A stretch of DNA of 64,000 nt from Sulfuricurvum sp. (GTDB lineage Bacteria > Campylobacterota > Campylobacteria > Campylobacterales > Sulfurimonadaceae). Of the stretch, positions 1,046 through 35,878 are shown piece by piece. The position numbers and the translations under genes are program-made. How positions within the stretch are numbered: the first letter of the stretch is position 1; each line of letters starts with the position of its first letter. The notes beneath the pieces are model-generated. The model made no database searches and was not told the DNA's origin. It saw nothing but the letters and a program-made list of their open reading frames with translations. Location: contig NZ_JAQUHV010000008.1 of the NCBI RefSeq assembly GCF_028681615.1, positions 1-64,000 on the forward strand. The letters run 5' to 3'.

Positions 1046-1833
1046 GCCCGTCCTCGCTTTCGATAATCAAAGAAATCGGCAATCACACCCATGATGCCAT
1101 CCAAAATCAGCCCTATCACCCCGACGATCGCAATTCCGATGATGATCGAGTGATAGTTTAGGTTGTTGTATTCATCCCAGATCCAAAACCCGATTCCTAT
1201 ACCGCCGGTGAGCATTTCAGCTGCGACAATAACGAGCCATGCAATCCCCAGTGAGAGCCGCATTCCCGTAAAAATAAACGGAACCGCAACCGGGAGGATG
1301 ATCTGAAATACTTTCTCAAACGGCGTCAGCTGCAACACTTTTGCAACGTTGAGATAATCCTCGCTTACACTTCTCACCCCAAGTGCCGTGTTGATGATAA
1401 TCGGCCAGATCGAGGTGATAAAAATGGTTGTGATTGCAGTCAGGTTAATATCTTTGAACACAAAAAGAAGCAATGGCAGCCATGCCAACGGTGAAACCGG
1501 CTTAAGTATCTGAATAAACGGGTTGAATGCGATAAACGCATTTTTGCTCATCCCGATCAATAGACCTAAAGGTACTCCGACAAGAATTGCCAGAGCGAAT
1601 CCGCCGAATACCCGCTCAAGAGAGTTGAGTACCTGCCAGCCTATCCCTTTGTCATCCTCATTGTTGATATAAAACGGATCGGCAAATACCTCTTTCGCGA
1701 CATCGTAGGTTTCACTCGGAGTCGGAAACTGTTCGACATGGCTTGCCAGTGCCGACCATCCCGCGATGATGAGTACGAGTACGAGCAGAGGAAGAACGAT
1801 CCTCTTGCCCAATTCAAACGCTTTTGAATTCAT
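1042..1833 (-). CDS. nrtB: Nitrate ABC transporter permease (NrtB-like)
   Basis: A 263-residue inner-membrane permease of the BPD type with about six hydrophobic segments. The cytoplasmic coupling loop lies around LNVAKVLQLTPFEKVFQIILP, which matches the EAA-type motif that docks on the ATPase. The first 20 residues form the N-terminal membrane segment after a short basic start. It sits 10 bases downstream of the nrtA stop and overlaps nrtD, giving a compact nrtA-nrtB-nrtD operon on the minus strand. Periplasmic delivery by NrtA is expected. Confidence 0.9.
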   Translation of the reverse strand: MNSKAFELGKRIVLPLLVLVLIIAGWSALASHVEQFPTPSETYDVAKEVFADPFYINNEDDKGIGWQVLNSLERVFGGFALAILVGVPLGLLIGMSKNAFIAFNPFIQILKPVSPLAWLPLLLFVFKDINLTAITTIFITSIWPIIINTALGVRSVSEDYLNVAKVLQLTPFEKVFQIILPVAVPFIFTGMRLSLGIAWLVIVAAEMLTGGIGIGFWIWDEYNNLNYHSIIIGIAIVGVIGLILDGIMGVIADFFDYRKRGRA

Positions 1834-1843
1834 GACTCAGCCC

Positions 1844-3226
1844 TTATTTGATGTATTTAGGATTGGCACATCCTGCCGGACCGTATGGGCATACGTATGC
1901 AGGCTGGAGTGTTTTGACTTTCCACGTATTGGCTTTGGCTAAAGCGGTTTTGGAAACTTTGGCATGATTGACTTTGGTGTCATAGATATAATCCACGGCA
2001 TGATTGGGGTCAAACACTTTGCCGTCAATGAACTTGTTATATTGGTCTTTACCGTCGATTTTCCACGGAGAAGCCGGCAGAGAATATCCAACGCTTTTTG
2101 CCGCTTTGGCAAACAAATCGGGACGGTAAACCGCTTCGACTGTTTTTTTCATATCGATTGGCTTATCGATTTGTCCCCAGCGGATCATTTGGGTCAAATA
2201 CCACATTCCATGGCTGTAGAACGGATATGCCGCATAATCGTTGGCAAAGACGTTAAACATCGGATTCGGTTCGCTTGGTTTGCCTTTTAGGAACTGAAAT
2301 GTTCCGGTCATGGAGTTGTCGATAATGTCTTTGGGTGCATTGACGTACTCTTTTTTAGAGAGGATGGCGGAAGCCTCTTTTCGGTTATCCCATGAAGCAT
2401 CGAGCCATTTTTGCGCCTCGATGATCGACTGCATGACGGCTTGGGTAGTTTCCGGATTTTTGTCGGCAAACGATTTGGTCGACATCAAAACTTTTTCGGG
2501 TTTGTTATTCCAAATGTCATAGTTGGTTACCAAAGAAGACCCGAGATTTGCCATAACCGCCCGTTCATTCCACGGTTCACCGACACAATATCCGTCGATA
2601 TTTCCGGCTTGGAGGTTTGCTACCATCTGAGGCGGCGGAACAACTTTCAAGGTGGTATCGGCATCCGGATCAATCCCGCTCATAGCCATCCAGTAGCGGA
2701 TTTCATAGTTATGGGTAGAGACAGGGAATACCATACCGAATTCAAGCGGTTTATATTTTGCGCCTTCAGCGGCATGCTTGGCATCGATCAGTTTTTTGAG
2801 CGAAGCAGAGGTAACTGGGCGCTTGACCGCATCCAAACCGTATTTTTCCATTTGTGTGATGACATCGTTTCCGAAAGTGATCGCATTACCGTTGTAATCG
2901 AGGGAGAGGAGGGCATACATCGGTGTATTTCCGCTGATGCCGAGTGTCGCTGCTAACGGCATTCCCGCAAGTGCGTGGGAATAGTCGTATTCGCCGCTGA
3001 TCACTTTTTGCTGAATGCCGGCCCAGCCGCCGCCTTCTTTTACAACGTCAACGTTCAAACCGTGTTTGGCAAAGAATCCTTTCTCTTTTGCAATAACGAT
3101 CGGCGCACAATCGGTTAGGGCGATGAAACCGATTTTCAGATTTGTTTTTTCCGGTGCAGCCATCGCAATAGAAGCGGCGATGGAGAGTAGCAAAGCACCT
3201 TTTCCTAAAACATTCAAGCATTTCAT
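1844..3226 (-). CDS. nrtA: Nitrate ABC transporter substrate-binding protein (NrtA-like)
   Basis: A 460-residue periplasmic solute-binding protein of the NrtA/CmpA family. I place the start at 3226 because ATAAGGAGTT precedes this ATG and a Sec signal peptide ([25 protein letters not shown]) follows directly. The reading frame stays open another 57 codons upstream, but that part covers the promoter and looks non-coding. Family hallmarks are [22 protein letters not shown] near the mature N-terminus, [12 protein letters not shown], and [12 protein letters not shown]. It is the first gene of the nrt operon, and its promoter region carries the operator-like box shared with narK. Confidence 0.92.
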
Positions 3227-3253
3227 ATCGAACTCCTTATTAAGACTATTTTG

Positions 3254-3321
3254 TCTGAAATAATTGTAGAGTAAAAAGTCCGAAATAGAATGCAGTCTAT
3301 TGTTTAAAAAATAAACAATAG
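3254..3321 (-). promoter_or_regulatory. nrtA promoter with inverted-repeat operator shared with narK
   Basis: Read on the minus strand, a perfect 10-bp inverted repeat with a five-base A/T spacer lies at 3297-3321 (arms CTATTGTTTA and TAAACAATAG). About 28 bases downstream comes CTACAATTATTTCAGA (3269-3254), which includes a -10-like TACAAT. No good -35 hexamer is visible. The same two blocks at nearly the same spacing occur upstream of narK (12760-12822). I infer that an activator or repressor binds the palindrome; its identity is unknown. Confidence 0.6.
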
Positions 3322-3475
3322 TATGATTATTATTTATAGTTTTATTGTTTTGTATTTCTATCAGCGGATATTGCTGTGATTTAACCCATCTCTGCATACA
3401 AGTTAAGTTATAATTTAAACATGCAGGGATAGATTATAGAAAATAAAAATATGTCAAAACGAGAAGGAGAGTGTT

Positions 3476-4870
3476 TTGTTCCATAAATATGAAATTGTTG
3501 AACGGCAAAATAATGCTCTCCAAAAACTTAATGAAATTGCCGCTATATCCAACCTGGATCCGAAGGAGACATTACTTCAAGCACTCATTGTCGGGAAAGA
3601 GTATTTCGGTCTGGAGTTTGCTATTGTCAGTCATATTGTCGGTGAAAATTATACAGTTGAAGTTCAATCGTCGCCGACAGATACCCTGTATGACGGGCAA
3701 CTGTTCGCACTTGGTTCTACATATTGTAAAACGACATTGGAAATAGATGACGTTCTCGCCATTACCGATGTTACAAAGTCACAATATGTCGGTCATCCAT
3801 GTCATAAAGAATTTGCTCTCGTATCTTATATCGGTGCGCCCGTCAGAGTGAATTCTGAAATATACGGAACAATCAATTTTTCTTCACCGAACGGCAGATA
3901 TTTGGAATACGATGAAATCGATTATGAATTTATGCGGTTATTAGCACGATGGGCTGGATCTTTTTTGGAGCGGAAGTTCGCACTCGATGAATTGTATTTT
4001 GCCAAAAAACGGTTTGAAATGATCTTTGAAAATAATGCTTCCGGTATTTTTGTGGTTAATAACAGTGGTCAGATCATGATGGCGAATAGACGTTTTTGCG
4101 ACATTATCGGATATTCAAAGGATGAATTGTTAGGGCAGAATACACAGCTTATTCATATTACTCAGGAATCGTATGAAACCGTCAAAGAAAAATTTAGCGT
4201 AGCGCACAATAATCTGTCACTAAAACTTGAATATACACTCAAAAGAAAAGATCAGAAATATATTGATTGCGAGTTTTTTGGTGCACCAATAGAGCTTGAG
4301 AAACAAAGTGTAGGGATTGTATGGAGTATTTTAGATATTACAAGTGAAAAAAAGCTTCAGCATCAGCTCGAAGAGCAAGCTTCTACGGATTATTTGACCG
4401 GATTGTTTAATCGAAGATATTTTACTGGCCGTTTGGAAGAAGAAATTTTTAGAGTACAGCGTAATAAAAATAATGCTACCGCTTTAATGATGCTGGACTT
4501 AGATAAATTCAAAAATATCAATGATACTTTCGGACATCTGGCCGGTGATGAAGTATTAAAAAGATTCACGAGTATTTTAAAAAGAAATTTACGTAAAACG
4601 GATATTTCAGGTAGAATCGGAGGAGAAGAGTTTGCTGTGATTTTACCTGATACGACAATAGACAGAGCAGTTGTCTTAGCCAACCGGATTCGAGAAGAAG
4701 TATCCAATCATACGGTAAAGTATGGTAGGGAGAAAATAATTTTTACGGTGAGTATCGGCCTGACAGTATTGTCGTATGAGGACAGTAATTTTGATACTGC
4801 TTTGGCCCGTGTTGATAATGCATTGTATTCGGCCAAAATGAATGGGCGTAATAGAGTCGAGCAAAAATAA
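3476..4870 (+). CDS. GAF-PAS-GGDEF diguanylate cyclase
   Basis: A 464-residue soluble signalling protein predicted to make cyclic di-GMP. The order is an N-terminal GAF domain (about 10-165), a PAS domain (about 175-295, with MIFENNASGIFVVN) and a C-terminal GGDEF domain. The active-site loop is GGEEF at about 382-386, so it should be catalytic. RKTD lies five residues before it and matches the inhibitory I-site RxxD. There is no transmembrane segment. The start is TTG at 3476, chosen because AGGAGA lies just upstream; there is no in-frame ATG nearby. It is divergent from nrtA and convergent with the Rrf2 gene. The GAF ligand is unknown. Confidence 0.9.
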   Translation: MFHKYEIVERQNNALQKLNEIAAISNLDPKETLLQALIVGKEYFGLEFAIVSHIVGENYTVEVQSSPTDTLYDGQLFALGSTYCKTTLEIDDVLAITDVTKSQYVGHPCHKEFALVSYIGAPVRVNSEIYGTINFSSPNGRYLEYDEIDYEFMRLLARWAGSFLERKFALDELYFAKKRFEMIFENNASGIFVVNNSGQIMMANRRFCDIIGYSKDELLGQNTQLIHITQESYETVKEKFSVAHNNLSLKLEYTLKRKDQKYIDCEFFGAPIELEKQSVGIVWSILDITSEKKLQHQLEEQASTDYLTGLFNRRYFTGRLEEEIFRVQRNKNNATALMMLDLDKFKNINDTFGHLAGDEVLKRFTSILKRNLRKTDISGRIGGEEFAVILPDTTIDRAVVLANRIREEVSNHTVKYGREKIIFTVSIGLTVLSYEDSNFDTALARVDNALYSAKMNGRNRVEQK

Positions 4871-4902
4871 GAGTTGATAGCGAGTCTAGCAGTTAGGTTG
4901 TT

Positions 4903-5328
4903 TTAAATCCGTTTTACTTTTCGTAAAGTGACGTCATCCGTAATATCACTTAAGCGCATTGCTGCATACATCTCCAGCATCTCTTGTCTCCATATATCCC
5001 ATTGGGCATGCAGGGCACACGGTTTTTCCGCTTCACAATCTCCGATCCCCAAAACGCAGGCATCAAAAAAGGTGGTTCCGTCCACGGCTTCTATAATGGA
5101 TAAGAGTGTAATTTCCGAAGCTTCGCGTGCGAGCGTGACACCGCCTGTCGCACCGCGTTGAGAGATTAGAAGATGTGCATGGACCAGTTTCTGAAGCGAT
5201 TTTGCCAAAAAAGGGAAGGGAAGATCGAGCGCGTCACTGATCACTTGTATTCGATGGAATTCTCCTGCCGGTTTGGTTGAGAGCCATACTGCGGCTCGGA
5301 TCGTATCTTGACAAGCGGAAGAGAGCAT
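4903..5328 (-). CDS. Rrf2-family transcriptional regulator
   Basis: A 141-residue winged-helix regulator. The N-terminal helix-turn-helix is seen in AVWLSTKPAGEFHRIQVISDALDLPFPFLAKSLQKL, and the wing in ISQRGATGGVTLAR. Three cysteines at about 91, 98 and 104 have C-x6-C-x5-C spacing, close to the iron-sulfur ligands of NsrR and IscR. This suggests an Fe-S cluster that senses nitric oxide, oxygen or Fe-S status. No Fe-S assembly gene is adjacent, so an NsrR-like role in a nitrate-using organism is plausible but unproven. It is convergent with the diguanylate cyclase gene. Confidence 0.88.
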   Translation of the reverse strand: MLSSACQDTIRAAVWLSTKPAGEFHRIQVISDALDLPFPFLAKSLQKLVHAHLLISQRGATGGVTLAREASEITLLSIIEAVDGTTFFDACVLGIGDCEAEKPCALHAQWDIWRQEMLEMYAAMRLSDITDDVTLRKVKRI

Positions 5329-5422
5329 TGAAAACCTTTAAACTGTTTTGGAGGGTAATTGTGACATATAAAAAGAAATTTTGGGTAAGAGATAGGAATA
5401 ATATCGAAGAGAGAACTAAGTT

Positions 5423-6169
5423 GTGATCAGTAAAATGCGAATCATGCAAAAAATTATTATCAATCAAAAATATTACGGTTCCATTGAAATCGAAGAAAAT
5501 GATGAAGCGAAACGCGTTTTATCCAAAGTCAAAAATGCTTTCGGTGCAGGAAAAACGATGGAAATCGGACTTATTTTTCCTCAGTACAAGCTCAAAGCAT
5601 TGGAAAATTACCAAAAAGGGGGAGCGAGACAGGAACTCGCCGATATCGATCTCTATATCGCTCTGGGAAAAGTGTTGAAATTTGACACCGCCGATGCCGA
5701 AAAGCTCAAAAACAAGATCGAACTGATCAACGATATTGCCCATAACCACTACAATATTTCGAAACGTCTCACGTTGATCAACAAAGTAAAAGCGACTCAG
5801 AACAGAGGAGATTATCTGTTTTGGGATATTGAAAACTTTTCGAATATCGGATCACTTTTTAATGACGTCATCGAGAAATTCGATATTCCCGATAACCGTA
5901 TTTATGTTGCAGCTAATCCCGACTCGCTCTATTTGTATAAAAGCCAATGGGAAGCGGATTTGTACGACTATAAAAAGACGCTTCAGTCGTTTAATTTCAC
6001 CAAATGCGATCACGGCAAAAACGTAGCCGATGATATTTTACTGGGACACTTTCAAAAGCTTTCACTCCGCAATGCAAATGCCTATCTGATGACGTTTGAC
6101 CGTGAATTGAAAGAGCGGTTTGTCGCTGAGTGCCATCCGAGCAATAATCTTTATATTTTGGAAAAATAA
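5423..6169 (+). CDS. NYN/PIN-like domain protein, possible nuclease
   Basis: A 248-residue protein in two parts. Residues 1-125 are a charged region I do not recognise. From about 130 a NYN (PIN-like) fold is suggested by YLFWDIENFSNIGSLF (D135 and N138), then KNVADDILLGHF (D203/D204) and MTFDRELKERF (D226), which give the spaced acidic residues expected of a metal-dependent ribonuclease. The assignment is by eye. The start is uncertain: GTG at 5423 has GAGAG about 8 bases upstream, and ATGs at 5435 and 5444 are alternatives. It is convergent with the next gene, the two stops being 2 bases apart. The substrate is unknown. Confidence 0.65.
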   Translation: MISKMRIMQKIIINQKYYGSIEIEENDEAKRVLSKVKNAFGAGKTMEIGLIFPQYKLKALENYQKGGARQELADIDLYIALGKVLKFDTADAEKLKNKIELINDIAHNHYNISKRLTLINKVKATQNRGDYLFWDIENFSNIGSLFNDVIEKFDIPDNRIYVAANPDSLYLYKSQWEADLYDYKKTLQSFNFTKCDHGKNVADDILLGHFQKLSLRNANAYLMTFDRELKERFVAECHPSNNLYILEK

Positions 6170-23892: not shown

Positions 23893-24641
23893 TCCGCTTT
23901 GAAAATGTAACCAAAAGCTTCGGAAAGCGGGAGATCCTAAAAGGGGTCACTCTGGAGATCGAGAAGGGCAAGACCACTGTCATCTTCGGTGTCTCCGGCG
24001 GAGGGAAGTCTACGATTATCAAACATATCGTGGGGCTGTTAAAACCTGATAGCGGTACGATCACGGTTGACGGTATCCGTGTCGACAATGCCGATGAGAC
24101 GACATTACGAGCAATCCGGACGAAAGTAGGGTTTTTATTTCAAAGCGGTGCGCTCTTCGACAGTATGAACATTCGAGAAAATGTCGCATTCCCGATGCTT
24201 GAACATCAAAAATTAACCCCAAAAGAGTTAGAACGAAAGATTGACGAAAAGCTTACGATGGTCGGACTTGATCCTAAAATCGTCAAATCGCTCTATCCTG
24301 AAGAACTCAGCGGCGGGATGCGTAAACGGGTAGGGCTAGCCCGCACCCTCGCGCTGGAGCCGGAAGTCATTTTATACGATGAACCGACGTCAGGGCTCGA
24401 TCCGGTGACGAGTGACTTTATCACGCAGATGATCAACGGTCTGCGTGATGATATCGGTATGACCTCTATCCTCATCAGTCATGATATCGCTGAGAGTTTC
24501 AAAGCAGGGGATAATTACGCAATGCTCTTTGATGGCGTCATTGTTGAATCAGGAGATAAAGAGTCGTTTCAAAATTCATCCAATGAAGTAGTTCAGCAGT
24601 TTATCCACGCACGTGCCAAAGGGCCGATAGAGTTTCATTAA
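23889..24641 (+). CDS. mlaF: MlaF-like phospholipid transport ATPase
   Basis: A 250-residue ABC ATPase of the Mla/Mce type, which moves phospholipids between outer and inner membranes. Walker A is GVSGGGKST, with VGFLFQSGALFDSMNIRENVAFP after the Q-loop (the typical MlaF form), signature LSGGMRKRVGLARTL, Walker B VILYDEPTSGLDP and switch ISHDIAESF. It overlaps the DUF4149 stop by 4 bases. Neither mlaE nor mlaD is adjacent; an AT-rich accessory patch follows instead, so partners must be elsewhere or have been displaced. Confidence 0.87.
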   Translation: MIRFENVTKSFGKREILKGVTLEIEKGKTTVIFGVSGGGKSTIIKHIVGLLKPDSGTITVDGIRVDNADETTLRAIRTKVGFLFQSGALFDSMNIRENVAFPMLEHQKLTPKELERKIDEKLTMVGLDPKIVKSLYPEELSGGMRKRVGLARTLALEPEVILYDEPTSGLDPVTSDFITQMINGLRDDIGMTSILISHDIAESFKAGDNYAMLFDGVIVESGDKESFQNSSNEVVQQFIHARAKGPIEFH

Positions 24642-24651
24642 CATCCTCGTC

Positions 24652-24708
24652 ATTCCCGACCTGATCGGGAATCTACCTATCCCGTCATTCCGTGCCACGA
24701 CACGGAAT
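24652..24708. repeat. Pair of REP-like palindromes
   Basis: Two short palindromes stand in tandem: ATTCCCGA-CCTGA-TCGGGAAT (24652-24672) and ATTCCGTG-CCACGA-CACGGAAT (24687-24708), each preceded by GTC. The second recurs almost exactly at 34840-34872. They sit immediately after mlaF and can act as a terminator or as a REP-type target. The rest of the 24642-24882 gap is AT-rich with no further gene. Confidence 0.75.
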
Positions 24709-24882
24709 CCATCCTCCTTTTATCCCCCCTAAAGCAATAAATCACTATTATCTTTTAACATATAAACAGATTTGGTGTTTATTTATATAGTTAAATTCAA
24801 GTTCTGAAATATATAATGTCCATTAAATATAATAGTTAGGTATCCAGTGTGGTGTAATCTGAAAAAGAAGGAAGAGTAAATA

Positions 24883-25428
24883 GTGAAAAATATCTGGTTC
24901 ATAAGAATGGATAAAGATAACTGGAATGATCTTAATCTCACTTTTGAAACACCATTCATTCACAGTATGCATGGTAGCTGTGGGGACATAGCACTTGCAT
25001 TGGAGTATAAAGATGATATTTTTCCCAAACTTTCAATTAGTGAGCAAAGTTTGTCTAAGAAAATACTGTCAATCAAGAATACTCTCATAGAAAATGGTGC
25101 TTTTAATGAAACGCAGCTTGGTAAACAACGCTGTGATCTTGCAATTATCTATTGGCTTTCAAGAATGAAAATTGATGATATTGTATTTGCTAGAAATAAA
25201 CTTGGTGAAGTCTTTCTGTGTAAAGTCACTGGTTATGTGTCCGAAGATTTTTTTGTTTCTTACGGTTGTTTTCAACGACCTGTTAAAATTTTACAAAAAC
25301 TATCTGAATCCATGATGAACGGAGATATATGGCATCGAACACAAGGCCGTAAAACAATTGAACGTAATGCTAAGCCTTTTATTGCCAACCTAGTGAAGGA
25401 TCATTTAAATAATTATAATTTGGTGTAG
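24883..25428 (+). CDS. Unknown protein, possibly EVE/PUA-like reader domain
   Basis: A 181-residue AT-rich gene with a GTG start and AAGGAAG 8 bases upstream. The N-terminal KNIWFIRMDKDNW, the middle DIVFARNKLGEVFLCKVTGYV, and the segment FFVSYGCFQRPVKIL together resemble the EVE/PUA-like N-terminal modules found on Mrr-type restriction proteins, which read modified bases. That is a by-eye comparison and may be wrong. No nuclease domain is attached. It is the first of three unusual genes between mlaF and the dnaJ-like gene, with clearly lower GC than the core, suggesting horizontal transfer. Confidence 0.55.
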   Translation: MKNIWFIRMDKDNWNDLNLTFETPFIHSMHGSCGDIALALEYKDDIFPKLSISEQSLSKKILSIKNTLIENGAFNETQLGKQRCDLAIIYWLSRMKIDDIVFARNKLGEVFLCKVTGYVSEDFFVSYGCFQRPVKILQKLSESMMNGDIWHRTQGRKTIERNAKPFIANLVKDHLNNYNLV

Positions 25429-25529
25429 TGGTAAAAGCCTTTCTAGCTCCTAAGCTCCAACTTTGGAGTCTATAAATGAGGACATTGGGAACGATGGAAC
25501 GTTATGAATATAGACAATAAGGAAAATAT

Positions 25530-26108
25530 ATGGGATTAAAAATTCACTCAATTGCAGAAATTCCAGAAAACGTATCAAGAAGCTACTATTTATATGTGCT
25601 TGATTACTACAATTGGGATGAACCAATAGGTAATACTCTTCGTTCTAATTTTGACCGTATGGCAGAATTTGCTTCAAAAAATGATGCTGTAGTAATACAG
25701 CCTGTTGGAGAGAGTCATTTCTTTTCAGAGTTATTATCTTGGGAAAGCCTTAATGGTATGAAGCCTGAAGATATTCTTCCAGCAATAATGATTACTTCAA
25801 TCCATCCACAATACTTTTTAGAAAGAGACAATCAAACTGTTCGAAGCGGTTCACTGCCAAAAGATGAAATTGTATTTATTCAATTAAAAGGAATTTGTAA
25901 TCAACCTACTGATGTTCTAAAAATTATTGAACAGATATTTACAGATATCAAAGAAAAAAAAGAAATTAAGAATTTTCAAGTTAAAAGAGAGCAAAAAGCT
26001 GGCGTTGGAGGTGCACTTGTTGATTCTTTAATACTTGAACCAAATTTCGCTGGTGTTGGTGTTGACCTCAAGAAAGTATTTTCTGTATTCAAGCGAAAAA
26101 ATGCATAA
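25530..26108 (+). CDS. Unrecognised protein in the accessory patch
   Basis: A 192-residue AT-rich gene with AAGGAAA before the ATG. I do not recognise a family. The first 120 residues look like a compact alpha/beta domain (YYLYVLDYYNW, DAVVIQPVGESHFF, ILPAIMITSIHP, DEIVFIQLKGI). A charged helix follows (about 125-155, KIIEQIFTDIKEKKEIKNF), then a glycine-containing stretch (KAGVGGALVDS) and a basic tail (KKVFSVFKRK). No signal peptide or membrane helix is clear. It lies 101 bases after the preceding gene and ends before a strong terminator, so the two may be one unit. Confidence 0.6.
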   Translation: MGLKIHSIAEIPENVSRSYYLYVLDYYNWDEPIGNTLRSNFDRMAEFASKNDAVVIQPVGESHFFSELLSWESLNGMKPEDILPAIMITSIHPQYFLERDNQTVRSGSLPKDEIVFIQLKGICNQPTDVLKIIEQIFTDIKEKKEIKNFQVKREQKAGVGGALVDSLILEPNFAGVGVDLKKVFSVFKRKNA

Positions 26109-26118
26109 TAAATCACTG

Positions 26119-26155
26119 GAGCCAATAAATTACACTTTGGGCAATTTATTGGCTC
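26119..26155 (+). terminator. Strong hairpin terminator
   Basis: GAGCCAATAAATT (26119-26131) and AATTTATTGGCTC (26143-26155) form a perfect 13-bp stem with an 11-base loop, followed by ATTTTAAAT. It lies 11 bases after the 192-residue gene and should end transcription before the DUF1643 gene. Confidence 0.8.
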
Positions 26156-26187
26156 ATTTTAAATGTTAGAGGAATAAAGGCATAAGT

Positions 26188-26715
26188 ATGATAAAAGAAG
26201 AAATCATTTATGCATCAGCAGAATTTTCTGATGATAAACTTTATAGATATTGGCTAAAAAGAGTGTGGGATGAAGATAAAGAAATTGGTGTATTTATAGC
26301 ACTTAACCCATCAAAAGCTACCGAATTAAAGTGTGATCAAACTATTTGTAATATTACTAATTTAGCTCTACAATGGGATTGGGGAGGATTCTACCTTTTA
26401 AATCTATTTGCTTTTAGGTCTACCGAGAAAAAACTAATGTTAATCAATCAAAATCCAATTGGAGAAAAGAATGATGAGATGATTGAAGCAATATGTAAAA
26501 GATCAAATAATATTGTTTTATCATGGGGAGAAGAAAAACCGAAACTAGTCAAAGATAGAGCAAGTAAGGTCAAACAAATTTTAAACAATATTAATAGAAA
26601 TGTTTTGTGTTTGTCAGAAAATGCTGGGAGTGGATATCAGCATCCATGTATAATCAAAGTTGAAGATTTTAAAGAGCCTAGGGTTACAAGCATCAATCAA
26701 AATGCTGGAAAATAA
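26188..26715 (+). CDS. DUF1643-family protein
   Basis: A 175-residue protein with the DUF1643 pattern: YRYWLKRVW near the start, then IALNPSKATELKCDQTICN, GGFYLLNLFAFRSTEKKLM, NQNPIGEKNDEMI and IVLSWGEE. The conserved NPS...D-T and N-x-F-x-x-R-x-T residues suggest a nucleotide- or nucleic-acid-related enzyme, but no activity is known to me. The family often appears in phages and mobile regions. AGAGGAATAAAG precedes the ATG. Low GC matches the two genes before it, although a terminator separates them. Confidence 0.8.
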   Translation: MIKEEIIYASAEFSDDKLYRYWLKRVWDEDKEIGVFIALNPSKATELKCDQTICNITNLALQWDWGGFYLLNLFAFRSTEKKLMLINQNPIGEKNDEMIEAICKRSNNIVLSWGEEKPKLVKDRASKVKQILNNINRNVLCLSENAGSGYQHPCIIKVEDFKEPRVTSINQNAGK

Positions 26716-26834
26716 AAATAAAAAAATAGGGTCATGCCTTGAGATAGGGGTCAGCTATTCAATCTTAAATTTTTAGGATATCGAAAAAAGAGGACGAAGC
26801 TAGAATAGCATTTACTTAAGAAAATAAAACATTT

Positions 26835-27125
26835 TTATCTTCCCCCAAACTTCTTTGCCCACCACTCTTGCGGGGTGAGGGTCTGCTCTTTTAAAAAGCT
26901 TTCTTCGAGATTATATTCATAGTTGGAACAGTATTCGAGCATTGTGGCGTAAGCTTCATTGATTTGCGTACTCATCGCGTGAGCGGTTTCGGGATCATCA
27001 GGGTGTTTGTCGGGATGCCATTGCTGCATCATGGCTTTGTATCGGGATTTGATATCGAAGAGGGTGGATTTGTCGTGAAGGCCAAGGAGCGTTTTGGCCT
27101 TCATAAGGGAGTCAAAAGAGAGCAT
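26835..27125 (-). CDS. Small J-domain (DnaJ-like) protein
   Basis: A 96-residue protein made mostly of one J domain (about 8-70). The helix II/III loop HPD is present in MMQQWHPDKHPDDPETA, so it should stimulate an Hsp70 ATPase such as DnaK. It lacks the Gly/Phe-rich and zinc-finger parts of full DnaJ. The C-terminus (TPQEWWAKKFGGR) is short and basic. It lies 12 bases after the ftsZ stop on the same strand and is likely translated from the same message. No specific client is evident. Confidence 0.85.
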   Translation of the reverse strand: MLSFDSLMKAKTLLGLHDKSTLFDIKSRYKAMMQQWHPDKHPDDPETAHAMSTQINEAYATMLEYCSNYEYNLEESFLKEQTLTPQEWWAKKFGGR

Positions 27126-34464: not shown

Positions 34465-34538
34465 TCTGCCTCGAAGAGGCTAGCTTTAGTGCCTTAGCGG
34501 CAAGCGTAGACAGAGGGATTTTATTCCTCTGTTGTTCA
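34465..34538. repeat. Dispersed structured intergenic repeat, copy B
   Basis: This is copy A's element in reverse orientation. GCCTC-GAA-GAGGC (34468-34480) comes first, then the conserved middle with AGCTTTAGTGCC and AGCGTAGAC, then hairpin CAGAGGGA-TTTTA-TTCCTCTG (34511-34531). Compared with copy A the stem bases differ on both sides but still pair. It fills the rsmH-ftsL gap, so it is probably transcribed within a coding message. Confidence 0.75.
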
Positions 34539-34552
34539 AAATGGAAAATAGT

Positions 34553-34831
34553 ATGAGCGAAAAGCACGATATTTTAGAAGAGACCCAGCATATCATCTCT
34601 CCCGATGAATCGATGGGGCCGATTTTTTTACGGAATGTTTTTGTAGGTATATTTTTGGTGTTAGTGATCGTTTTTCCTAAAATTTTTATCAACACCCAAA
34701 TCTATTTTAAAAGCCGTGAGATATCAACACTCACGCATGAACATGATTCTCTGATGGAAGAAAATCGTCTTATCAAAGCTAAAGTGGAATTAATGAAATA
34801 CAAAAGTCAGATTTCGGATACGCTCTTTTAG
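34553..34831 (+). CDS. FtsL-like small division membrane protein
   Basis: A protein of about 92 residues with a cytoplasmic N-terminus (about 1-25), one membrane helix (about 26-48, NVFVGIFLVLVIVFPKIFI) and a periplasmic leucine-zipper-like coiled coil (about 50-85, ISTLTHEHDSLMEENRLIKAKVELM). This topology and its position right after rsmH match FtsL, which forms a complex with FtsB and FtsQ in the divisome. Sequence similarity in this family is always low, so the call rests mainly on position and shape. The start could also be the ATG at 34541. Confidence 0.65.
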   Translation: MSEKHDILEETQHIISPDESMGPIFLRNVFVGIFLVLVIVFPKIFINTQIYFKSREISTLTHEHDSLMEENRLIKAKVELMKYKSQISDTLF

Positions 34832-34839
34832 ATTGCTCT

Positions 34840-34872
34840 CCCGTCATTCCGTGCTACGACACGGAATCTATC
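34840..34872. repeat. REP-like palindrome, second copy
   Basis: CCCGTC followed by ATTCCGTG-CTACGA-CACGGAAT (34846-34867) differs from the copy at 24687-24708 by one loop base, and the flanks are also alike (CCCGTC before, CYATCC after). It lies between the ftsL-like gene and the brnT/brnA pair and may terminate the division operon. Confidence 0.75.
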
Positions 34873-34902
34873 CCCAATAACTCATTTTATTTTTAAATTT
34901 GG

Positions 34903-34908
34903 TATACT
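34903..34908 (+). promoter_or_regulatory. Likely -10 box of brnT
   Basis: GGTATACTATTAGTATG places TATACT only 6 bases before the brnT ATG. There is no ribosome binding site in the gap, so the transcript may start at or next to the ATG (leaderless). Confidence 0.45.
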
Positions 34909-34914
34909 ATTAGT

Positions 34915-35178
34915 ATGAAATTTGAATATGATAGCAACAAAAGTAAAGTAAATAGAGAAAAACATGGGATTGACTTCGATGAAGCACAACATCTATGGCT
35001 CGATGAAAATTTACTTGAAGCTCCTTTGAACTTTCCTGATGAAATGCGTTTTATATGTATAGGAAAAATCGGGGAAAAACACTGGTCTGCTGTTATAACG
35101 TATCGGTCAGAAATGATTCGAATAATTTCCGTGAGACGATCACGGCAAGTGGAGGTAGAATATTATGAAAACAGCTAA
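34915..35178 (+). CDS. brnT: BrnT-family toxin
   Basis: An 87-residue ribonuclease toxin of the BrnT family. Typical marks are FEYDSNKSKVNREKHGIDFDEA at the N-terminus (here FEYDSNKSKVNREKHGID), EMRFICIGKIGEKHWSAVITYR in the middle, and RIISVRRSRQVEVEYYEN at the end. BrnT toxins cleave RNA and arrest growth until neutralised by the partner. It overlaps the antitoxin gene by 14 bases, with the toxin first as is usual for this family. It is probably leaderless, as the -10 box lies 6 bases from the ATG. Confidence 0.92.
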   Translation: MKFEYDSNKSKVNREKHGIDFDEAQHLWLDENLLEAPLNFPDEMRFICIGKIGEKHWSAVITYRSEMIRIISVRRSRQVEVEYYENS

Positions 35179-35392
35179 AGAATTTGACGAAGCATTTGAT
35201 AATGGCGAAGATATAACTGAGTTTGTGGATTGGTCTGCATCACGTCGGCCTAATTTGGAGCAAAAACGGGTGAATCTTGATTTGCCTGTATGGATGATTG
35301 AGAGACTCGATTATGAAGCAAAACGGCTTGGTGTTGCCCGACAAGCAATTATGAAAATGTTTTTAGCTCAACATTTGGAAAAAACTGGGTGA
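35165..35392 (+). CDS. brnA: BrnA-family antitoxin
   Basis: A 75-residue antitoxin. The C-terminal half has the ribbon-helix-helix pattern VNLDLPVWMIERLDYEAKRLG followed by VARQAIMKMFLAQHLE, which binds the operon promoter and represses it; the acidic N-terminus (EFDEAFDNGEDITEFVDW) wraps the toxin. GGAGG lies 9 bases before the ATG, inside the brnT gene, so translation is coupled. The pair is expected to be autoregulated. Confidence 0.9.
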   Translation: MKTAKEFDEAFDNGEDITEFVDWSASRRPNLEQKRVNLDLPVWMIERLDYEAKRLGVARQAIMKMFLAQHLEKTG

Positions 35393-35556
35393 ATTCTAGA
35401 TATTTCTTTTCCATTCCCAAGATGTTTGGGGATGTCGATCTGATTTAACCCCTTTATTTTAAAATCCAACCTCTCCTGAAATTCATTCAACATTCATCTT
35501 TTTCTTCTATATTTTTTTCTCTAACTCTTTTTTTACAGACCTAAGAATTCAGATGG

Positions 35557-35562
35557 TATAAT
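35557..35562 (+). promoter_or_regulatory. -10 box before the DUF2018 gene
   Basis: TATAAT lies 31 bases before the ATG, with a T-rich stretch and TTTACA about 19 bases upstream. Campylobacterota sigma-70 promoters often have a good -10 and a weak -35, and this fits. The region 35393-35556 is AT-rich with no gene. Confidence 0.65.
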
Positions 35563-35593
35563 CGCCCTCTTAAATTGATACTTTGGAGATACG

Positions 35594-35878
35594 ATGTATA
35601 ATTTGTTTGAAGACGAAGACGATATTTTCCAAGGTTCGCCGAAAAGTAAGTTTTTAGATATCGTTTACAACGCAAATCGCGATTTGGTTCAAAATGAACT
35701 TGAGCGTTTGATGACGCGTATGGCGGCTATGGAACTTATGCTGCAAGAAGCACACGGCGAAGATGCAATTGAACGTATCCTTAAAACGATGCAGTTTGAG
35801 CGTGCGGATGAAGTCGATATGATGACAAAAAATCTTTACATCATTTCGGTTGGAAACGTTTTAACTCAAAACGAGTAA
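35594..35878 (+). CDS. DUF2018 (HP0242-type) protein
   Basis: A 94-residue helical protein. The pattern NLFEDEDDIFQGSPKSKFLDIVYNANRDLVQNELERL, continuing to NLYIISVGNVLTQNE, fits DUF2018, a family found in Campylobacterota whose H. pylori member HP0242 folds as a small entwined (knotted) helical dimer. Its role is unknown. It is the first gene of the operon that leads to polyprenyl synthase and hemA. GGAGATACG precedes the ATG. Confidence 0.85.
   Translation: MYNLFEDEDDIFQGSPKSKFLDIVYNANRDLVQNELERLMTRMAAMELMLQEAHGEDAIERILKTMQFERADEVDMMTKNLYIISVGNVLTQNE

Follow-up and report, generated by a model that had tools for sequence, protein, structure and literature searches.

The AT-rich patch between mlaF and dnaJ in this Sulfuricurvum sp. 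genome is very probably the integrase-less remnant of a sedentary chromosomal integron, and such remnants are a kind of element already known. An integron relic, not a transposon, is the most likely agent behind the patch because an attI-like site, one clear attC and cassette boundaries at GTT are present. In the patch itself, the attC, the attI homology, the cassette boundary of gene 2, the lack of a recognisable intI and the polymorphism of the site were established directly. By this reading an anonymous AT-rich patch becomes a defined object with a mechanism, and pieces of integron attI and attC persist, at a gap filled in 15 of 38 genomes, in a genus where no integrase can be recognised. 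The 192-aa protein of the second gene represents a conserved family that has no Pfam entry, appears to be moved by integrons across phyla and lies near TIR-type genes in several of the examined loci.

The GC content of the patch (24642-26834) is 32.5%, compared with 43.7% for the window, that is, the whole stretch of 64,000 nucleotides that was analysed, and only 0.2% of sliding windows of the patch length were equally low, every one of them overlapping the patch. The genes around it have higher values (mlaF, 47.1%; dnaJ, 46.7%; ftsZ, 47.5%). Three codirectional ORFs on the + strand occupy the gap between the convergent mlaF and dnaJ, and such codirectional AT-rich ORFs were counted for the integron reading; none of them is of transposase size. 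The original prediction of a three-gene, low-GC patch that opens with REP-like palindromes thus agrees with the composition and with the two palindromes at its left end. The motifs of its 3′ end, GGGTCATGCC and GGGGTCAG, putative transposon tails in the original prediction, occur once and twice, respectively, across the window, and an Rfam scan of 24500-27000 gave no match at E ≤ 0.1. The features are as follows.

24648-24673, no strand: REP-like palindrome 1, by pattern match; DNA folding of 24642-24720 predicts a hairpin (z -5.0)
24683-24709, no strand: REP-like palindrome 2, by pattern match; 92% copy at 34842-34868
24748-24838, + strand: attI-like region, aligning over 91 bp at 73.6% identity (E 7e-9) with the sequence on the attI side of the G238 genome's intI
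Between G24835 and T24836, + strand: predicted attI crossover (between ATAG and TTAG), within the attI-like region
24883-25428, + strand: ORF 1, 181 aa, GTG start, in the first cassette position
25446-25497, no strand: second palindromic repeat (GCTCC..GGAACGATGG), seen in the sequence; no attC match
25502-26165, + strand: complete gene cassette holding ORF 2, GTT to GTT (homology block with locus L078, 25498-26168)
25530-26108, + strand: ORF 2, 192 aa, of a conserved family that Pfam does not list
26103-26171, + strand: attC site, covariance model R1, 53 bits, E 6e-9, filters off; DNA folding z -3.6
26188-26715, + strand: ORF 3, 175 aa, DUF1643, directly 3′ of the attC
26716-26770, + strand: possible decayed attC of ORF 3, R1 13.1 bits, E 3.3; weak, not claimed

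The REP-like pattern was found seven times in the genome and not at all with the reversed control. Two further stretches of the window are low in GC, at 34501-35750 and 3251-5000, and the copy of palindrome 2 lies in the former.

The attC site was found with R1, a covariance model of 23 attC whose arrays flank integron integrases in five further class genomes. The model was built solely from attC of integrase-bearing relatives to avoid circularity, and its stem covaries beyond shuffled and slid controls. On the window, the opposite strand of the site scored 25 bits and the next-best place 13 bits, and the site is the sole R1 match of its own genome at E ≤ 0.01. Agreement with the model extends beyond the stem to the R″ and R′ boxes; against the integron reading, the R″ box in the window is TAAT instead of TAAC, and the patch has only one convincing attC. 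R1 matches were obtained in 13 of the 41 genus genomes and in 39 of 249 class genomes (E ≤ 1e-4), including 15 of the 17 that have an IntI match at E ≤ 1e-30, an overlap which assumes that the identical 249 genomes were drawn for the two scans. The remaining 24 of the 39 attC-bearing genomes, that of the patch included, lack an IntI match at that threshold. The attC of genome G024 are scattered on several contigs and those of G020 lie at two distant places. A hand-made hairpin scan for attC was dropped because it missed sites visible by eye. In integrase-bearing arrays of relatives we also observed repeated GC-rich palindromes of 136 bp (L110:4848-4983, L112:2213-2348, L112:8831-8966 and L111:430-565), bounded by TAAC/CAAC..GTTA and placed like cassettes without genes.

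The boundaries of the cassette were obtained by comparison with L078 (Epsilonproteobacteria bacterium tcs-49), which has the nearest relative of the 192-aa gene; there, a hairpin with TAAC..GTTA boxes stands on either side of the gene (z -4.1 and -7.1 by DNA folding). The alignment spans the homology block, and the two sequences diverge at GTT on both sides, indicating that ORF 2 fits an intact integron cassette, with both a 3′ attC and GTT boundaries. In favor of the integron reading, attC-like flanks were seen by eye around homologs in Methylobacillus, two Planctomycetes and Microbulbifer, and R1 matched weakly in two Planctomycete loci, L061 and L063, as well as at another place of the Methylobacillus locus. 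The R1 scan of the window gave neither ORF 1 nor ORF 3 an attC of its own at the level expected of a gene cassette. Both absences count against the integron reading; behind ORF 1, where R1 had no match, the repeat at 25446-25497 occupies the expected place of the attC, and similar repeats are found in the inserts of G024 and G017. The possible attC of ORF 3 begins at the first base past the stop codon.

The attI side was compared with G238, using the region from intI to the first cassette as reference stretch. A 27-mer of attI from this genome matched at 23 or more positions in 7 of 11 IntI loci (G238 included), at 26 in the leader of G012, which lies at the same gap, and at 25 in the leader of G033 at a different locus, and the best match elsewhere in the window was 19. 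Since the window copy itself matches at just 18 of 27 positions ungapped, which is in the background range, or at 24 by eye when one inserted base is allowed, the assignment rests on the 91-bp alignment and on the intermediates in G012 and G033. Against the integron reading stand this low ungapped score, with its inserted base, and the gapped local alignment, which halts at ATATAATGT, short of the crossover. The first cassette of G012 starts with TTAGATT and has the complement AATCTAAC at its far end, where R1 is weak (18 bits). One stretch of G020 has an attI-like site (22/27) with two attC downstream of it, and no intI over the cut-off was found in this genome. When the 27-mer was compared with 21 loci, L149 (25), L153 (22) and L045 (26) stood out and the other 18 scored 19 or less, indicating that most scattered attC sites are without a recognisable attI. 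Assignment of the whole leader as attI was rejected, as copies of its 5′ part (24710 to about 24790) are present at other places that have no attI core; this part (24710-24790) is a dispersed AT-rich repeat in 11 of the 41 genus genomes, often beside CGTCATTCCG palindromes, which also counts against the integron reading.

Of the parts of a complete integron, the patch has an attI beside the first cassette, a copy with one inserted base, and lacks intI: an integron integrase (TIGR02249) over the cut-off was found in none of the 41 genus genomes, its own included, whereas 14 of the 249 class genomes have one. A tblastn search of the window with the integrase of G238 detected no relic of intI, which is also against the integron reading. 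An integron-integrase-like match under the cut-off was observed in G035:C34:12258-13042 (L083; 86.9 bits, in two pieces). A promoter scan gave 12 sites against 9.5 expected, and for this reason a cassette promoter is not claimed; a 10-of-12 site lies in the leader at 24804-24833.

We next consider the same gap across the genus, for which 41 genomes were sampled. A dnaJ ortholog, convergent with mlaF in every case, was present in 38; the gap measures -4 to 115 bp in 23 of them and 483 to 4024 bp in the other 15. The proteins of ORFs 1-3 were absent from the fetched mlaF/dnaJ loci of the other 37 genomes (tblastn, E ≤ 1e-4). The original prediction, which called the patch accessory and named the mlaF-dnaJ interval of relatives as the place to check this, is therefore borne out more strongly than it was claimed, with the gap filled in 15 of 38 genomes and the three genes in none of the 37 others. 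The sister genome G024, whose dnaJ is 98% identical, has a different insert of 3.8 kb behind a similar leader, with an HNH gene that is type IV restriction-like (mREase_IV-like). The filled gaps and the different inserts in sister genomes together indicate a recurrent insertion site with turnover. In favor of the integron reading, attC occur in same-gap inserts of other genomes, namely two in G024 (65 and 49 bits) and one in G017 (31.5 bits); against it, the element is missing from the close relatives G023, G026 and G001, while related elements occur in G012 and G017, which are distant, so that its descent here is uncertain.

Other contents of these gaps were observed as well. A gene family of 106-121 aa (..ATEEAY..HRDFIRSVM..) occurs in the inserts of five genomes (L042, L045, L052, L055 and L056); its genes read towards mlaF, and two copies are present in G022. 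By eye, genes of L053, L054, L041, L043 and L149, which stand at or near such sites, have a toxin-antitoxin or RhuM-type look (RelBE-like, nucleotidyltransferase-HEPN-like or MazF-like). A hairpin-rich gap element of about 100 bp (..CTAACGC..GTTAACAC..GCAC) is common to L020, L024, L030, L035, L036 and L048.

In the mechanism that we propose, an integron integrase, now gone from the genome, would have placed cassettes singly at the G/TT junction of attI and attC. Behind the attI-like docking site would follow cassette 1 with the 181-aa gene, cassette 2 with the 192-aa gene and its attC, and cassette 3 with the DUF1643 gene. The attC of cassette 1 may have been lost or overwritten by the palindromic repeat and that of cassette 3 may have decayed, and with the integrase lost, attI and one intact and two eroded cassettes would remain, palindromic repeats having settled at the cassette junctions. 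Genes 1 and 3 were presumably acquired as cassettes, and transcription of the cassette genes would start at a promoter within or close to attI. The cargo likely has accessory stress or phage-related roles, each gene separately. Turnover between sister genomes that lack intI implies either recent loss of intI or an integrase acting in trans; we infer that intI was formerly present at the patch.

A published account (PMC8618304) traces integrase-less clusters to the loss of their intI, to off-target insertion or to rearrangement. Off-target (attG-type) insertion, by which the integrase of a passing phage, plasmid or donor cell added single cassettes where there was never an integron, is among them, and the lack of intI in all 41 genus genomes, the scatter of attC in G024 and G020 and the single attC of the patch are in its favor; nevertheless it appears unlikely, because an attG needs no attI, whereas attI-like sequence stands right before cassette 1 and also at the same gap in G012. 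An accumulation of AT-rich genes gathered by palindromic repeats and RAYT-like or IS ends, in which the likeness to attC is that of a terminator, has very little to recommend it and was already disfavoured: palindromes are present at the left end and at 25446-25497, and the attC stem by itself could serve as a terminator, but R1 matches the R″ and R′ boxes besides the stem, homology ends at GTT and no ORF is of transposase size.

The original prediction took the patch as the best candidate in the window for an undescribed defence or conflict cassette. That it is such an island, with all three genes acting jointly, is quite improbable, although the match of ORF 1 to PDC-S02 (E 3e-4), the TIR_2 domain in 5 of 43 neighbours of the 192-aa gene, the HamB-like helicase cassette alongside it in L078 and the HNH mREase_IV-like gene in the G024 insert speak for it. 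On the other side, the PADLOC search of known anti-phage systems gave no defence family that covers most of any of the three proteins, the 192-aa gene moves without the other two (no relative of ORF 1 or ORF 3 among the neighbours in 22 loci), and the cassette structure implies separate acquisition. The three genes look like separately captured cassettes, and nothing points to one system. A defence role of the cargo is plausible but unproven and has a modest probability; the TIR, PDC-S15 and HamB-like neighbours of the 192-aa family and the HNH gene of G024 lend it indirect support. The idea fits the 192-aa family best, rather than the patch as a single system.

Taken as an integron remnant, the patch resembles the sedentary chromosomal integrons of class members (G238 and G169), whose attC of 65-71 bp have the same boxes and stem and whose attI core, AATAAATAGTTA, is common to the patch; it differs from them in the loss of intI, in having 1-3 cassettes instead of about 10, and in its site between mlaF and dnaJ. 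Chromosomal integrons reportedly act as anti-phage libraries, as described in 2025 by Darracq and by Getz. With these libraries the patch shares the cassette platform, and its relatives carry in part cargo of the defence type, whereas it belongs to a different clade and has no integrase. Like a CALIN (cluster of attC sites lacking an integron integrase), it has cassettes with attC in a genome without intI; unlike a CALIN, it has one clear attC and retains an attI-like site. The IntegronFinder 2 description gives at least two attC as the default for a CALIN (PMC9024848), and by this default the patch falls short of a CALIN; it comes under just the older, one-attC definition. The titles and abstract openings of the Sulfuricurvum literature on integrons or gene cassettes describe no such element.

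The 192-aa family was found at 23 loci by tblastn among 84,980 species genomes, in several bacterial phyla and with 49-89% identity, one 25-residue fragment excepted. Its alignment of 21 rows has an invariant Y-x-L-D-Y-Y-N-W-D-E-P-I motif and invariant His and Glu residues; D25, H63 and H92 are among the invariant positions. The window copy had no Pfam match, and those of the 21 members were weak and scattered; there was no match in plasmids or viral contigs, the best E of the PDB profile search was 0.18, and PADLOC matched neither this protein nor ORF 3. The structure model, of moderate confidence (pLDDT 68.6), reached a best Z of 7.0, the top chains being mostly thioredoxin/PDI. Among the 43 neighbour proteins taken from 22 loci, 5 matched TIR_2 (E ≤ 1e-5), a raw count without a baseline rate; TIR-type neighbours were named in L063, L066 (Edaphocola), L070 and L080, with a weak TIR-like relative in L075, and in L066 the TIR gene stops one base before the 192-aa gene. 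A neighbour in L061 matched PDC-S15. Against a defence link, single scans of 20 neighbours gave no match for 7 of 10 in one set and 8 of 10 in the other. In L078, a two-gene unit (1820-5585) with a HamB-like helicase (E 6e-54) is enclosed by attC sites. It immediately precedes the 192-aa cassette and is upstream of a UvrB-type gene; PADLOC gave no match for the partner ORF, and the unit may be a cassette-borne defence system. We propose, tentatively and as a rather doubtful possibility, that the 192-aa protein is the first member of an anti-phage family, as yet undescribed and associated with TIR, of small alpha/beta proteins acting with or beside TIR enzymes, and that it is encoded by a cross-phylum integron cassette that persists here in an integrase-less relic.

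The original prediction that all three genes are of unknown or poorly known function needs one supplement: ORF 3 belongs to a Pfam family, DUF1643. ORF 1 is an orphan by these comparisons, having no homologs among 298 class genomes apart from its own, plasmids, phages, viral contigs and PDB sequences. PADLOC gave a partial match to PDC-S02 over residues 88-165, the sole one of the three proteins at E < 0.001, and a partial one to PDC-M47B (E 0.016), and Pfam one to PUA_4 (E 0.15); we assume a possible resemblance of its motif to a PUA/EVE-like domain.

ORF 3 is a DUF1643 protein (PF07799, 121.4 bits against a gathering score of 22.5, E 3.5e-35), a domain found in 11 of 200 class genomes. It also matches phrog_3230 (E 1.5e-37), and tblastn detected relatives in 97 of 50,697 phage records. 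As a single sequence it had no match in viral contigs or PDB sequences, and the PDB profile search had a best E of 0.88. Foldseek gave no match for its structure model, which is good (pLDDT 84.5), at E ≤ 0.001. On structural re-alignment, where all Z were below 8, UdgX chains took 14 of the top 15 rows (Z 5.6-6.2; Z 6.2 over 127 residues with an rmsd of 3.6) and a plant TIR domain had Z 6.3. The UdgX rows hint at a uracil-DNA-glycosylase-like arrangement, and at no more.
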